This document shows, one piece after another, positions 6,657-38,357 of a DNA stretch of 64,000 nucleotides (position 1 is its first letter; the number at the start of each line of letters is the position of its first letter). A program made the position numbers and the translations under genes. The DNA is from Propionivibrio soli (GTDB lineage: Bacteria; Pseudomonadota; Gammaproteobacteria; Burkholderiales; Rhodocyclaceae), in contig NZ_JANZKY010000004.1 of the NCBI RefSeq assembly GCF_025770765.1, forward strand, positions 1 to 64,000. The letters are read 5' to 3'. The notes below the pieces were generated by a model. It saw only the letters and a list, made by a program, of their open reading frames with translations. It ran no database searches and was not told the origin of the DNA.

Positions 6657-6681
6657 TGAATCGCCCCGGCTTCCCTAGACA
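6657..6681. repeat. IS terminal inverted repeat (OrfB end)
   Basis: 25-base terminal repeat starting TGAATCGCCCCGG and ending TAGACA. It pairs with 7864-7888 with four mismatches and contains the TAG stop of the transposase. Confidence 0.88.
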
Positions 6682-7508
6682 CTTTCGAGCCGGTTGAAAT
6701 ACTGCTGTTCGAACTGTACCGGAGAAAGCCCGTCTGCATACGAGTGACGACGCTTCGGGTTGTAGAACATCTCGATGTAGTCGAAGACATCCCGCCTCGC
6801 TTCTTCGCGGTCGGCATAGATTCGTCGTCGAATCCGCTCCCGTTTCAGTAGCTGGAAGAAGCTCTCTGCAACCGCGTTGTCGTAACAGTTGCTGCGCCGG
6901 CTCATGCTCGGGACTAGGTTGTGGACCTTCAGGAAGGACTGCCAGTCGTGACTGCTGAACTGGCTGCCCTGATCTGAATGCACGATGACCTCCTGCTTTG
7001 GTTGCCGGCGGCACACCGCCATCAGTAGCGCATTGATCGCCAACTCGCGATCGATGCGAGAGTGCATCGACCAACCGATGACCCGCCGCGAGAAGAGGTC
7101 GAGCACGACACCCAAGTAGAGCCAGCCTTCGTAGGTGCGGATGTAAGTAATGTCCGTCACCCAGACCTGATTCGGCTCGGCGACGTCGAATTCCTGCTGA
7201 ACGTGATTCGGTGCGATCACCGCTGGACGCCCGTAGCGCTGGCCGGGACGCCGACGATAACCCGTGTGCGAGCGCAGCTTCGCCACGCGCATCAGGCGAT
7301 AGACGCGATGCTTGCCGCAGGATTCACCGACCTCGCGCAGATCGTCGGTGATCTTGCGGTAGCCATACACACCGCCGCTTTCCAGCCAGAACTGCTTGAT
7401 GAGTCCGACTAGGCGCCGATCTTCCCTCTGCCGCGCAGACATCGGCGATGTACGCCAAGCGTAGTAGCCGCTCGGATGCACCTTCATCACCCGACACATC
7501 GTCCGCAC
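6675..7508 (-). CDS. IS3-family transposase OrfB (DDE integrase domain)
   Basis: This 277-residue catalytic part of the transposase has a helix-turn-helix-like HTH_21 region at the N-terminus (YGYRKITDDLRE) and an rve integrase core. The catalytic triad is visible as the D of WVTDITYI, the D of VHSDQGSQF and the E of NAVAESFFQLLK. The listed start is an in-frame GTG. The same frame stays open upstream through FIRSHEEQHAV to the slippery site at 7580-7586, so the functional product is most likely the OrfAB fusion made by -1 frameshifting, not free OrfB. Confidence 0.93.
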   Translation of the reverse strand: MRTMCRVMKVHPSGYYAWRTSPMSARQREDRRLVGLIKQFWLESGGVYGYRKITDDLREVGESCGKHRVYRLMRVAKLRSHTGYRRRPGQRYGRPAVIAPNHVQQEFDVAEPNQVWVTDITYIRTYEGWLYLGVVLDLFSRRVIGWSMHSRIDRELAINALLMAVCRRQPKQEVIVHSDQGSQFSSHDWQSFLKVHNLVPSMSRRSNCYDNAVAESFFQLLKRERIRRRIYADREEARRDVFDYIEMFYNPKRRHSYADGLSPVQFEQQYFNRLESV

Positions 7509-34816: not shown

Positions 34817-35425
34817 ATGGACAAGCCCAACGCTCCTTCCTGCGAAAAGAACCGGGAACCGATTCTTGACGTGCTACGCCAGCACTTCGCCGATCGTCAT
34901 CATGTGCTGGAAATAGGCAGCGGCACCGGCCAGCACGCCATCTTCTTTGCCAAACACTTGCCGCACCTGACCTGGCAGACGTCGGATCGCGCAGAAAATC
35001 TGCCCGGTATCACAGCATGGCTGGACGACGCCGCCCTGCCTAACACCCCGCCCCCTCTGTTACTCGATGTGCAGGAAACCTGGCCGGTCCTATCCTACGA
35101 TGCGGTTTTCTCGGCCAACACCCTGCACATCATGCCCTGGACCGCCGTCGAGTCTCTGTTCGCCGGTCTGACCAGCATCATGGCTCGCAACGCCAAACTG
35201 GCCATCTACGGTCCATTTAACTACGGCGGCCGATTCACCAGCGACAGCAACGCTAGTTTTGATCGCTGGCTCAAGGAAAATGCGCCACATCAAGGAATAC
35301 GGGATTTCGAAAAGGTGCATGCCCTCGCGCAAGGAGCCGGGATGGAGCTGCTTGAGGACCGGCCGATGCCGTCAAATAACCGCTGTCTGGTTTGGCAGGT
35401 AGGGGATAGTGTTGAACTTGGATGA
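34817..35425 (+). CDS. DUF938 SAM-dependent methyltransferase-like protein
   Basis: This 202-residue class I methyltransferase-fold protein has the SAM motif VLEIGSGTGQHAIFFA (about 30-45) and the family-specific block YGPFNYGGRFTSDSNASFD (about 135-153). This combination defines DUF938 proteins, widely conserved in Proteobacteria with no assigned substrate. There is no membrane or signal segment. GC drops sharply after its stop, at the boundary of the next island. Confidence 0.9.
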   Translation: MDKPNAPSCEKNREPILDVLRQHFADRHHVLEIGSGTGQHAIFFAKHLPHLTWQTSDRAENLPGITAWLDDAALPNTPPPLLLDVQETWPVLSYDAVFSANTLHIMPWTAVESLFAGLTSIMARNAKLAIYGPFNYGGRFTSDSNASFDRWLKENAPHQGIRDFEKVHALAQGAGMELLEDRPMPSNNRCLVWQVGDSVELG

Positions 35426-35632
35426 GTAGCGATCAGCGGCACGACCTGCCTTTCGGCATCAAACCTCGAATGGCAGGTTGCCTATTAAAGCCGCCATTCA
35501 CAGTGCTTTAGGATATTTACAAGTTCTTGAGTGCTTCGATTCCTGTCTCTGTCTTAGTTGGCTGCTTGTACCTTTTGCTGCAGACTACCGCTTTGGATCG
35601 TCTGCCTAGATCTTGAATTCCAGGAGTAGGGA

Positions 35633-36820
35633 ATGAGTATTGAAATCGAAATGGGTGAAGTAGAAGATGAACAGGAAGTACCGCCCGCTGGAGTCAAAGA
35701 GCAGGATCCCGACGAGTTTTTTTCGAAAAACGCGTTTCGTATCGTCTACCAGACGAACAACTTTTTCCTACCCCAACTTCGAGATCTCATCGAAAAGGGT
35801 GAAATACTGAATCTGCGGCCGGAATACCAGCGACGCTTACGTTGGACAACTAGTCAGAAGTCCAAGTTGATTGAATCTTTTCTCTTGAACATTCCGGTCC
35901 CGCCAGTATTCCTTTACGAGAGCGACGCGGCTCGGTATGAGGTCATGGACGGTCAGCAGCGGCTAAATGCTGTGCGTGAGTTTATTGCGGGTGACTTTGC
36001 TCTAACGGCATTGCCAGTGCTTAAGCCACTCAATGGGCTCCGCTACTCTAAATGCCCGCCGCGCATCAAGAGAGCGCTCGACCGTGCAAGCATATCGGCC
36101 ATAGTATTACTTCTTGAGAGTGAGACCAAAAAAACACAAGAGCAAATTACGCTCACGGACATTCGTAGGTTCATATTCGACCGCTTGAACACCGGTGGCA
36201 TAAAGCTGAATCCGCAGGAAATCCGTAACGCGCTCAATACCGGAGACTTCAACAAGGTCATCATCGACCTAACTCGCTTCAGGCTCTTCACGAAGGTCTT
36301 CGACATCCCTCCTTACATCGAAAGCGACCCAAACGAGTATTACGAAAACCCGCAGAGGCAGAAAAACATCCTCTATTCAACTATGGGCGATTGCCAACTC
36401 GTTCTTCGATATTTTGCTCTGAGGGACGAGAACAACATCCGCGGCTCGATGAAATCGATGCTGGATCGCGCGATGGAACTCAAGATTACGGGAAATGAAG
36501 GTGAAGCACTTAAGCAGGATTTCATCGACCGTTTCACGTTTCTGCACGACCTTTTCGAAGGAAGGCCCTTCCTGCTTCCGCCAGATGATAAAGGGCACGT
36601 CCGTGTTTCGGCAGCAATATACGATGCCGCGATGGTCGCAATAAACGACCTTTGGGCCATACGCGACGAAATATCCAATGATGCGGCTCAAGTCAGAATA
36701 CGAATGTCAGAAGCTGTAGCCGACCCAGCAAGAATTATCGTGCTGACGGGTCAGGGCAATACTGCAAAAGCAGTTAAAGAGCGGATTGCCCTTCTGCGGG
36801 AGATATTGCGTCCGGAGTAG
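35633..36820 (+). CDS. DUF262 (ParB/GmrSD-N-like) protein of a two-gene module
   Basis: This 395-residue protein has the DUF262 domain, a ParB/Srx-like nuclease/NTPase fold shared with GmrS of type IV restriction and with BrxR/SspE-like defence proteins. The key motifs are kept: RPEYQRRLRW (62-71) and the DGQQR core (Asp 106 to Arg 110), followed by DRLNTGGIKLNPQEIRNAL (about 181-200). The C-terminal half is helical with no recognised nuclease domain. It begins after AGGAGTAGGG and is three bases ahead of the HEPN gene. Codon use and GC (near 50%) differ from the flanks, pointing to horizontal transfer. Confidence 0.88.
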   Translation: MSIEIEMGEVEDEQEVPPAGVKEQDPDEFFSKNAFRIVYQTNNFFLPQLRDLIEKGEILNLRPEYQRRLRWTTSQKSKLIESFLLNIPVPPVFLYESDAARYEVMDGQQRLNAVREFIAGDFALTALPVLKPLNGLRYSKCPPRIKRALDRASISAIVLLLESETKKTQEQITLTDIRRFIFDRLNTGGIKLNPQEIRNALNTGDFNKVIIDLTRFRLFTKVFDIPPYIESDPNEYYENPQRQKNILYSTMGDCQLVLRYFALRDENNIRGSMKSMLDRAMELKITGNEGEALKQDFIDRFTFLHDLFEGRPFLLPPDDKGHVRVSAAIYDAAMVAINDLWAIRDEISNDAAQVRIRMSEAVADPARIIVLTGQGNTAKAVKERIALLREILRPE

Positions 36821-36823
36821 ATT

Positions 36824-37558
36824 GTGGCCACCGTCTTTGAAGTCATTGCTGAAGAGTTCGTCGAGGACATGGAGGCCATTCGCTCCCTAGTTGTTACGTT
36901 TGATGAGCCTCAAAATAATCTCAAGGTACGAATTGCGGCTGCGAATTCATCAACACTCTTGGTCGCAGCAACCTTTGAGGAGTTTGTGCGAGAGATGGCG
37001 CGAGAATACGCTCGATTTGTCGTCAACCGCACTGAGTCGTTTGCGAAACTCCCCTCGAAACTGGCCTCCACGGCTTGGAAGCGAACGATGGAAGGACTTG
37101 CGAAGATTAGGTTTCACGAGGATGAGGCTGGGATGGGAACGGAGAATCCATTCAGTGCCGCTCAAGTTCGGTTCTCTGTAATCCATGATTTTTGCAGCGG
37201 CGACCTCACCCAGGATATTTACCGTGATCTAATCCACAACGAGAACAACATGCGCCCTAATGAATTGAACAGCATGTTTAAGGTGAGTGGTCTAAGTGAC
37301 GTCTGTCGAAAGCTATCACATCGGCAATCAATACTAGACGTCTTAGGCGAAACAGAGGGCGCCAAGGCCCACGGAAAACTCATAAACATGTTGGAGGATT
37401 TTTTCGAGCGTCGTAACGCTATCGCTCATTCCCTGAATCCGGGCCAGTCCAGTGGTCCAGACCAGATCGTGAACGACATCAACTTGCTTGAGAGTTTCGG
37501 GAGAGCTCTTTGCGAGACTCTCGACATACTGACGCAGACAACTCCCGAACGGCAATAA
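36824..37558 (+). CDS. HEPN-domain protein (MAE_28990-like), putative RNase
   Basis: This 244-residue protein has the HEPN signature near the C-terminus: Arg 197-Asn-Ala-Ile-Ala-His 202 in FERRNAIAHSLNP, the Rx4H motif that forms the metal-independent RNase site in HEPN toxins. The N-terminal half is helical (AATFEEFVREMAREYARFV, similar to the start of MAE_28990/MAE_18760-type HEPN proteins). Translation starts at a GTG three bases after the DUF262 stop, with GGAG in the end of the first gene, so it is translationally coupled. It is predicted to be the toxic effector, with DUF262 as sensor or control partner; this division is inference. Confidence 0.8.
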   Translation: MATVFEVIAEEFVEDMEAIRSLVVTFDEPQNNLKVRIAAANSSTLLVAATFEEFVREMAREYARFVVNRTESFAKLPSKLASTAWKRTMEGLAKIRFHEDEAGMGTENPFSAAQVRFSVIHDFCSGDLTQDIYRDLIHNENNMRPNELNSMFKVSGLSDVCRKLSHRQSILDVLGETEGAKAHGKLINMLEDFFERRNAIAHSLNPGQSSGPDQIVNDINLLESFGRALCETLDILTQTTPERQ

Positions 37559-37910
37559 CACTTCTAGAGGTCAAGTGACCGAACAAAGACACCCATTGAT
37601 TGGGGCCGACGGCCCTCCATGATTGAGTAGCAGATTAGTGGCCGATACGTTACTTGCCGTTCGACCTGGCCATTGCATGGAGAGATGTCACGTTTGTTCA
37701 TAATGCGGTGCAGAAGTATCGTCGGCCAAAAGCAACTGGCCGGTATTACTACATGTTGCTATTACGGCGACAATATCGACCGGCTCTTCTGGGTCGATAA
37801 CTGCCCGTCACGTCGACGCGACGACGAGCGTGCAAACCGCATTATTCGTGAACGAACCGGCCTCGCCTGACGCAGACACATCTCGGCCAGGCGAGACCGC
37901 CTCCTTTGCA
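37559..37910. other. Right flank of the DUF262-HEPN island, no gene seen
   Basis: About 350 bases. A short dyad GGGCC-GAC-GGCCC (37603-37615) follows the HEPN gene without a T-run. No integrase, direct-repeat pair or tRNA end that would mark a mobile island could be identified. GC returns to the local norm toward 37800. Confidence 0.45.
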
Positions 37911-38357
37911 TCACCCCGGAATATCCGGTTCGACGAGGTTGGCGAGTTGGATGAGGGATTCCTGCCAGCCGAGGTAGCACATCTCGGGCGGGATGGCTTC
38001 CGGGATGCCTTCTTGCACGATGCTCATTTCGGTTCCGCAAGCCACGGCTTTCAGCGTGACGGTCACCTGCATTTCGCCCGGCAGGTTCGGGTCGTCGAAC
38101 TTGTCGGTATAACGAACCAGTTCGCCGGGGATGAGTTCGCGGTATTCGCCGCCGAACGAGTGGCTGTTGCCCGTGGAAAAGTTGCGGAAGGCCATGCGGA
38201 ATTTGCCACCGACCCGGGCATCCATTTCTTGTACCGAGCAGATAAAGCCGTACGGCGGAATCCATTTGCACATTGCATCGGCTTCGACGAAGGCTCGATA
38301 GACCTTTTCGGGTTTAGTACGTAGGACGCGATGAAGTTTGACAGTGCCGGTAGCCAT
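37911..38357 (-). CDS. SRPBCC (AHSA1-like) protein
   Basis: This 148-residue protein has an Activator-of-Hsp90-ATPase-1-like SRPBCC fold: VLRTKPEKVYRAFVEADAMCKWIPPYGF, the GGKFRMAFRN hairpin, GEYRELIPGELVRYTDKF and a C-terminal helix (LGWQESLIQLANLVEP). A GGAG site precedes the ATG. Related to the SRPBCC genes at 40.3-41.3 kb but too divergent for recent duplication. Ligand unknown. Confidence 0.87.
   Translation of the reverse strand: MATGTVKLHRVLRTKPEKVYRAFVEADAMCKWIPPYGFICSVQEMDARVGGKFRMAFRNFSTGNSHSFGGEYRELIPGELVRYTDKFDDPNLPGEMQVTVTLKAVACGTEMSIVQEGIPEAIPPEMCYLGWQESLIQLANLVEPDIPG

Follow-up and report, generated by a model that had tools for sequence, protein, structure and literature searches.

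A mobile DUF262-HEPN gene pair of Propionivibrio soli, a putative anti-phage cassette with the same two kinds of parts as PD-T4-2

What is the function of two adjacent AT-rich genes in Propionivibrio soli, one encoding a DUF262 protein and the other a HEPN protein? An initial annotation of the DNA proposed that the pair could be a minimal defence module. The genes lie in a window of 64,000 nucleotides, the whole stretch analyzed here (assembly GCF_025770765.1, contig NZ_JANZKY010000004.1, positions 1-64,000 of the forward strand).

The gene pair and its surroundings

The DUF262 gene (GmrSD_N, ParB/Srx-like NTPase), a putative sensor or regulator, spans positions 35633-36820 of the forward strand and encodes 395 amino acids from an ATG start. 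The HEPN gene (RiboL-PSP type), a putative RNase effector, spans 36824-37558 on the same strand and encodes 244 amino acids; both open reading frames are found at these positions in the ORF list and in the sequence. As the initial annotation had stated, the second gene begins with GTG three bases (ATT) after the first, whose stop codon is TAG. A GGAG Shine-Dalgarno-like sequence runs into this stop codon (36814-36820, forward strand), and among 18 relatives, eight have GGAGTRR immediately 5' of the HEPN start codon. Translation of the two genes is therefore likely to be coupled via the GGAG that overlaps the stop codon, in keeping with an operon.

The foreign composition first ascribed to the pair was borne out, the GC content being 0.497 versus 0.597 in the rest of the window. 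Sliding windows of 1926 bp with a GC content that low make up 0.6% of the total and all overlap the pair. The pair is real and beyond chance because both proteins are recognizable elsewhere at 40-78% aligned identity (HEPN in 18 loci, DUF262 aligned from 17 loci). The nearest flanking genes scanned with Pfam encode DUF938, a short-chain dehydrogenase and an AHSA1-like protein, with no evident tie to the pair; the AHSA1 homologue follows HEPN on the opposite strand. No direct repeats bracketing the pair were found in 35300-38000. A single sigma-70-like site was seen, within the HEPN gene, and chance alone would account for it; no common motif stood out among 21 upstream regions. At 6675-7508 the window has an ORF that, by eye, resembles a transposase of the IS3 family. 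The 17-mer at 36426-36442, which codes for ENNIR of DUF262, is nearly identical (16 of 17 positions) to that at 37239-37255, which codes for ENNMR of HEPN; both lie in conserved stretches, and their likeness is probably due to chance.

No other convincing defence gene was found in the window with PADLOC. Its 47 ORFs gave matches to mad3 (four), AriA (one) and mad8 (one), which are taken to be generic ATPases or kinases.

The DUF262 protein

The assignment of the first protein to the DUF262 family is upheld by a match to Pfam GmrSD_N (PF03235, E 7.9e-25), which is its only Pfam domain. The RPxYQR and DGQQR cores are present as R62-P63-E-Y-Q66-R67 and D106-GQQR-110. In an alignment of 18 DUF262 proteins (including that of the window and leaving out the interrupted copy of locus L028), three motifs are invariant in 18/18: QR (Q66 R67; 35828-35833, forward strand), DGQQR (D106-R110; 35948-35962, forward strand), which belongs to the NTP pocket, and FxxxN (36176-36190, forward strand), of which F182 and N186 are fixed. 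These three are named as motifs of the DUF262 domain in the available text of PMC12137116. The genome of P. soli has one DUF262 protein of this type.

The HEPN protein

The second protein matches the Pfam family HEPN_RiboL-PSP (PF18735) with an E value of 3.3e-16 and a score of 60.2 bits versus a cut-off of 28.4, and it carries the Rx4H motif at R197-H202, as originally read from the sequence. The score for the MAE_28990 HEPN family is just under its cut-off (25.7 versus 26.8 bits). Matches to PADLOC models are weak, the best being to BrxL (E 0.0013), and the NsnB and PD-T4-2_B models give no match at E values up to 1.

The Rx4H catalytic motif (R197-N198-A-I-A201-H202; 37412-37429, forward strand) is found in 18 of 19 clade members, including the window protein. 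The clade is also marked by a signature, LIHNENNMR (residues 136-144; 37229-37255, forward strand), which contains N142. A conserved acidic residue, E52 (36977-36979, forward strand), may contribute to the active site. E52, N142, R197, N198 and H202 are invariant in an alignment of 12 hand-chosen HEPN proteins linked to DUF262, of which 3 are from the window clade. The other 9 share 16-22% identity with the window protein, and at that level the positions assigned to E52 and N142 depend on how the sequences are aligned. The chosen rows omit L005, L011, L031, L033, L042, L066-L068 and L072, so the invariance is uninformative about short HEPN proteins like that of PD-T4-2. The conserved residues point to a working, if so far predicted, HEPN nuclease. 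No significant match to solved structures was obtained by sequence; HEPN would presumably adopt the helical fold of its family and form a dimer.

One copy departs from this pattern. In L030 (10001-10498) the HEPN frame stops at 165 amino acids, inside the contig, and none of the three forward frames past the stop contains Rx4H; the adjoining DUF262 frame is open. This HEPN copy looks decayed, with its C-terminal catalytic part lost, and the loss slightly lowers confidence in a defence function for the pair.

Conservation as a two-gene unit

A scan with the HEPN protein as query, using one genome per species, yielded 18 HEPN loci at 42-74% identity (16 in Pseudomonadota, 1 in Gemmatimonadota and 1 in an Acidobacteriota bin). 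DUF262 is directly upstream in 18/18 of them, at 60-78% identity in 17; in L028 it is in two pieces (68% and 51%). The pair, whose spread had been left as a question for a search across genomes, is thus conserved well beyond close relatives, in three phyla. The loci came from a HEPN query, so the count means that this HEPN clade goes with DUF262 and not the converse.

Several lines of evidence define the limits of the unit. DNA similarity between the window and the other loci (L002-L068) is confined to 35623-37535. In 18/18 loci the AT content of the pair exceeds that of its flanking DNA (the span in L028 includes its insertion). Clustering with blastp found no third gene family recurring in the 18 loci, save four common to L025 and L026. 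Distances between DUF262 proteins correlate with those between HEPN proteins (r 0.87 over 17 taxa, with none of 2000 permutations as high); the two trees have 7 of 14 splits in common, with no conflict between splits with support of at least 90. HEPN evolves faster (mean distance 0.478 versus 0.317 for DUF262). The differing flanks, the end of similarity at the ORFs and the correlated distances indicate that a compact two-gene unit moves as one.

In L025 (Aureimonas) and L026 (Neomegalonema), which belong to different families, the DUF262 proteins are almost identical; with the four shared neighbour families, this indicates recent transfer. In L028 (592-3562) an apparent insertion sequence with a transposase-like ORF, recognized by eye, splits DUF262 and leaves the HEPN frame open.

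Distribution and mobility

The spread of the pair is patchy. A HEPN profile found no match among 296 further genomes of the family and, among 397 further ones of the phylum, a single match, a distant HEPN relative with DUF262 beside it (L070). Some DUF262 relative is present in 10 of the 99 nearest genomes, including the genome of the window itself. The best among the other near genomes is at 41% identity in a congener (L002), where its partner is a different RiboL-PSP HEPN.

A scan of IMG/VR gave 7 viral contigs with the HEPN gene; DUF262 is upstream in 5 of the 7, and the contig ends before it in the other 2. Six of the contigs were scanned with PHROGs (L059 was omitted as a near-copy of L058), and terminase, portal, minor head or primase genes are near the pair in four (L054, L055, L056 and L058). 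L057 and L060 carry mostly families of unknown function. The DNA of L055 and L057 appears to be that already sampled as L027 and L017. The window HEPN protein has no match in plasmids or named phages. Its DUF262 partner has relatives in 87 named-phage records and 761 plasmid records; in the two phage records opened, those of a P2-like Vibrio phage and Peduovirus P24B2, a RiboL-PSP or MAE_28990 HEPN adjoins DUF262. Phage-like contigs carry near relatives of the pair; more remote relatives are found on plasmids and in P2-like phages.

No empty site was shown, since DUF938 was not found in congeners and the matching flanking genes are mostly at separate places. The DUF938 gene to the left of the pair (34817-35425) has no counterpart in 27/27 congeners, some of them incomplete, at E values up to 1e-30, and the variable stretch may therefore reach beyond the pair. 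Around the 18 loci, 145 neighbouring ORFs, of which some are surely spurious, matched 46 PADLOC families at E 1e-15, a number that comes without a background rate. Each of the 25 families listed out of the 46 was matched by one protein, among them GajB, a type I restriction enzyme, Csx1, mad3 and a Cas12-like protein, and the matches are not tied to particular loci.

Partners of DUF262 proteins

A tree was built of 50 DUF262 proteins. HEPN queries supplied 21 of them, DUF262 similarity 22, the NsnB model 5 and the PD-T4-2_B model 1; the remaining one is that of the window. The tree leaves out L028 (interrupted), L055 (like L027), L057, L059 and L061-L064 (duplicates), and L041 and L056 (no DUF262 found). 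The window protein falls in a clade of 21 rows (support 99/98), all of them HEPN-linked, and several of the deeper branches of the tree are long, so that placement there is unsure.

The rows were first labeled as 36 HEPN-linked, 8 ATPase-linked and 6 other. Four of the six were then reassigned to HEPN, namely L011, L066 and L068, whose neighbours are similar to other HEPN partners, and L034, which has an Rx4H fragment in a split frame. The final census is 40 HEPN, 8 ATPase and 2 other; within the 22 rows found by DUF262 similarity it is 17, 3 and 2. For plasmids and phages the census covers 5 of 20 listed plasmid matches and 2 of 15 listed phage matches (from the 761 and 87 in all), and L031 was opened because its label already named HEPN. 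According to Pfam, the partners of the DUF262 relatives L007-L009 are AAA_15/AAA_21 proteins.

On a Nostoc plasmid (L034, 7171-8208), DUF262 is followed by an unannotated HEPN-like frame in two pieces with the motif RNQIAH. The two remaining rows are from congeners (L012, 60-2401; L010, 844-3227), where a gene for an EcoRI-type adenine methyltransferase precedes the DUF262 relative; that of L012 matches PF13651 (E 9e-130) and that of L010 clusters with it. No HEPN was recognized beside DUF262 in these two loci.

Proposed mechanism and alternatives

The reading that we favor, with moderate confidence, is that the two genes form a mobile anti-phage cassette, with DUF262 sensing an infection cue and controlling a HEPN RNase. 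DUF262 would bind and hydrolyze NTP and serve as sensor and gatekeeper; in a putative complex with HEPN it would hold its partner inactive until an infection cue appears, or activate it only upon that cue. The cue would most likely be a feature of phage DNA, because the DUF262 relatives GmrS, BrxU, SspE and GrwA read DNA modification. Once released, HEPN, presumably as a dimer, would cut RNA at a site formed by E52, N142, R197, N198 and H202, which would stop the phage from multiplying and probably sacrifice the infected cell. The patchy spread, phage-like carriage, AT-richness, intact motifs, co-inheritance and the precedent of PD-T4-2 count in favor of such a cassette, as do the confinement of DNA similarity to the pair and the distant DUF262-HEPN pairs of the two phages. 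The absence of another convincing defence gene in the window, the decay in L030 and the absence of a match to solved structures count against it.

The pair may instead be a plain toxin-antitoxin system in which HEPN is a constitutive RNase toxin and DUF262 its antitoxin, serving plasmid or prophage maintenance with phage defence as an incidental effect. HEPN toxins are common in toxin-antitoxin systems according to the available part of PMC3710099, and an antitoxin-first gene order, coupled translation, the phage-like contigs and the relatives on plasmids would all agree with such a role, as would L030, where a short HEPN beside an open DUF262 has the expected look of toxin loss. However, DUF262 is larger than HEPN and has a complete NTPase signature, which a simple antitoxin would not need. 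The split DUF262 of L028 suggests that DUF262 is not an indispensable antitoxin, as the HEPN frame is open there, unless the insertion silences HEPN. On balance this explanation appears unlikely. Systems in which a restriction-modification complex is paired with an anticodon nuclease, such as PrrC, provide the model for another explanation. DUF262 would itself act on foreign DNA, by attacking or marking it, and HEPN would be a suicide RNase that serves as a second line. DNA methyltransferase genes adjoin the distant DUF262-HEPN pairs L031 and L035, and L072 has one two genes away; these also fit the DNA-reading step of the cassette. Moreover, the MAE_28990 HEPN is tabulated in an operon with a ParB nuclease and a methylase (PMC3710099, table). 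No methyltransferase or other third gene recurs in the window clade by blastp clustering, however, and the window DUF262 protein has no second domain in Pfam, making a restriction-type role quite improbable. The possibility that HEPN is a non-catalytic RNA binder, the pair regulating expression or repair, draws on the view in the same source that some HEPN domains are non-catalytic. It is highly improbable given that Rx4H is kept in nearly all clade members, that E52, N142 and N198 are kept in the wider selection, and that the distribution is patchy and mobile.

The cassette reading can be extended tentatively. DUF262 would be a portable infection sensor with a swapped output, which is a DUF1524 DNase in GmrSD, a P-loop ATPase in Menshen and an HEPN RNase in a broad family that includes PD-T4-2 and the window clade as branches. 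The HEPN branch would then couple a DNA-reading NTPase to an RNA cutter that it turns on (DNA in, RNA out), the site of the cutter being made of the five residues above. We regard this as possible, with less than even confidence. In the portions of the literature examined, DUF262 is characterized as a regulator of DNases (GmrSD, BrxU, SspE and GrwA). A minimal cassette with a DUF262 NTPase in control of an RNase would separate sensing from killing, and the sensor could then be studied alone.

Comparison with known systems

The PADLOC models NsnA, NsnB and NsnC are, we presume, components of Menshen. NsnA is the best PADLOC model for the window DUF262 protein (E 9.9e-57). It also ranks first for the DUF262 proteins of four HEPN-linked plasmid pairs, which shows that NsnA is a broad model. 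In contrast to Menshen, no NsnB-type ATPase adjoins the window gene, HEPN being next to it, and DUF262 proteins whose neighbour is an ATPase (NsnB-type or AAA) group apart in a clade of 8 rows (support 99/99). The NsnB model matches in 266 of 274 genomes and in 14/14 controls, and is read as a P-loop ATPase and not as HEPN. Identity with Menshen was rejected on gene content (no ATPase) and on the position of DUF262 in the tree. A literature search found no paper naming both NsnA and NsnB. PADLOC 2.0.0 strongly labels the DUF262 half alone, as NsnA, and surveys that use it would therefore half-call or miss the window clade.

GmrSD, BrxU, SspE and GrwAB have in common with the window clade a DUF262 protein with QR, DGQQR and FxxxN, but no DUF1524/HNH nuclease was found fused or adjacent to the window protein, the partner being a separate HEPN. 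Nuclease-bearing and doublet architectures are among the 20 commonest clusters in a survey of enterobacterial GmrSD, in the part available (PMC12373910). An operon of DUF262, an ATPase and a BECR-RNase is proposed in the accessible text of PMC11980606, where DUF262 is likewise grouped with an RNase.

The initial annotation knew of no experimental description of this pair, a statement that does not hold for its kind. PD-T4-2, from E. coli ECOR65 (Vassallo et al. 2022), gives E. coli protection against T4, and ECOR65 from which it has been deleted is more sensitive, with increased plaquing by T4 (PMC9519451, available text); it is listed under both DUF262 and HEPN PF18735 in a review, in the part that was available (PMC10952713). 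The association itself was tabulated in 2013 by Anantharaman et al., who place Ribo L-PSP-HEPN in an operon with ParB (PMC3710099). The window HEPN is of the same Pfam family with the same ParB-like type of partner; the table, however, gives the association only, and the available text does not single out the window clade or its signature. A literature search, within the licences that it covered, found no description of the window clade.

The representative of the PD-T4-2 type among the loci, L042 (PD-T4-2_B, E 1.6e-61), has DUF262 directly upstream of HEPN, as in the window, and an Rx4H motif, RNRVAH. Its DUF262 is homologous to that of the window (hhalign probability 98.9%, E 1.1e-17), and the window DUF262 matches PD-T4-2_A (E 4.6e-26), with NsnA scoring higher. 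The HEPN proteins differ more: that of the window has 244 amino acids and that of L042 has 167, and the latter is under the PF18735 cut-off (18.7 versus 28.4 bits). The PD-T4-2_B model misses the window HEPN and finds no match in its genome at E values up to 0.001, and the two DUF262 proteins are on separate branches of the tree. A profile of the window-clade HEPN compared with the HEPN of L042 and of two plasmid pairs gave hhalign probabilities of 1.4, 1.7 and 3.0%, which are not significant and count against the cassette. Links between single HEPN sequences extend no further than nearer relatives (L070, 39 bits; L065, 28 bits; L071, 20 bits). A pair from an E. coli plasmid (L033) is in between, its HEPN scoring 66 bits on PF18735 and matching PD-T4-2_B (E 4.4e-4), with no significant hhalign match to the window clade. 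By these models the window pair is neither Menshen nor PD-T4-2, and judging from its sequence it is made of the same two kinds of parts as PD-T4-2. The resemblance to PD-T4-2, a pair that blocks a phage in E. coli, suggests that it represents a new sub-type within a type of immune system that is already known.
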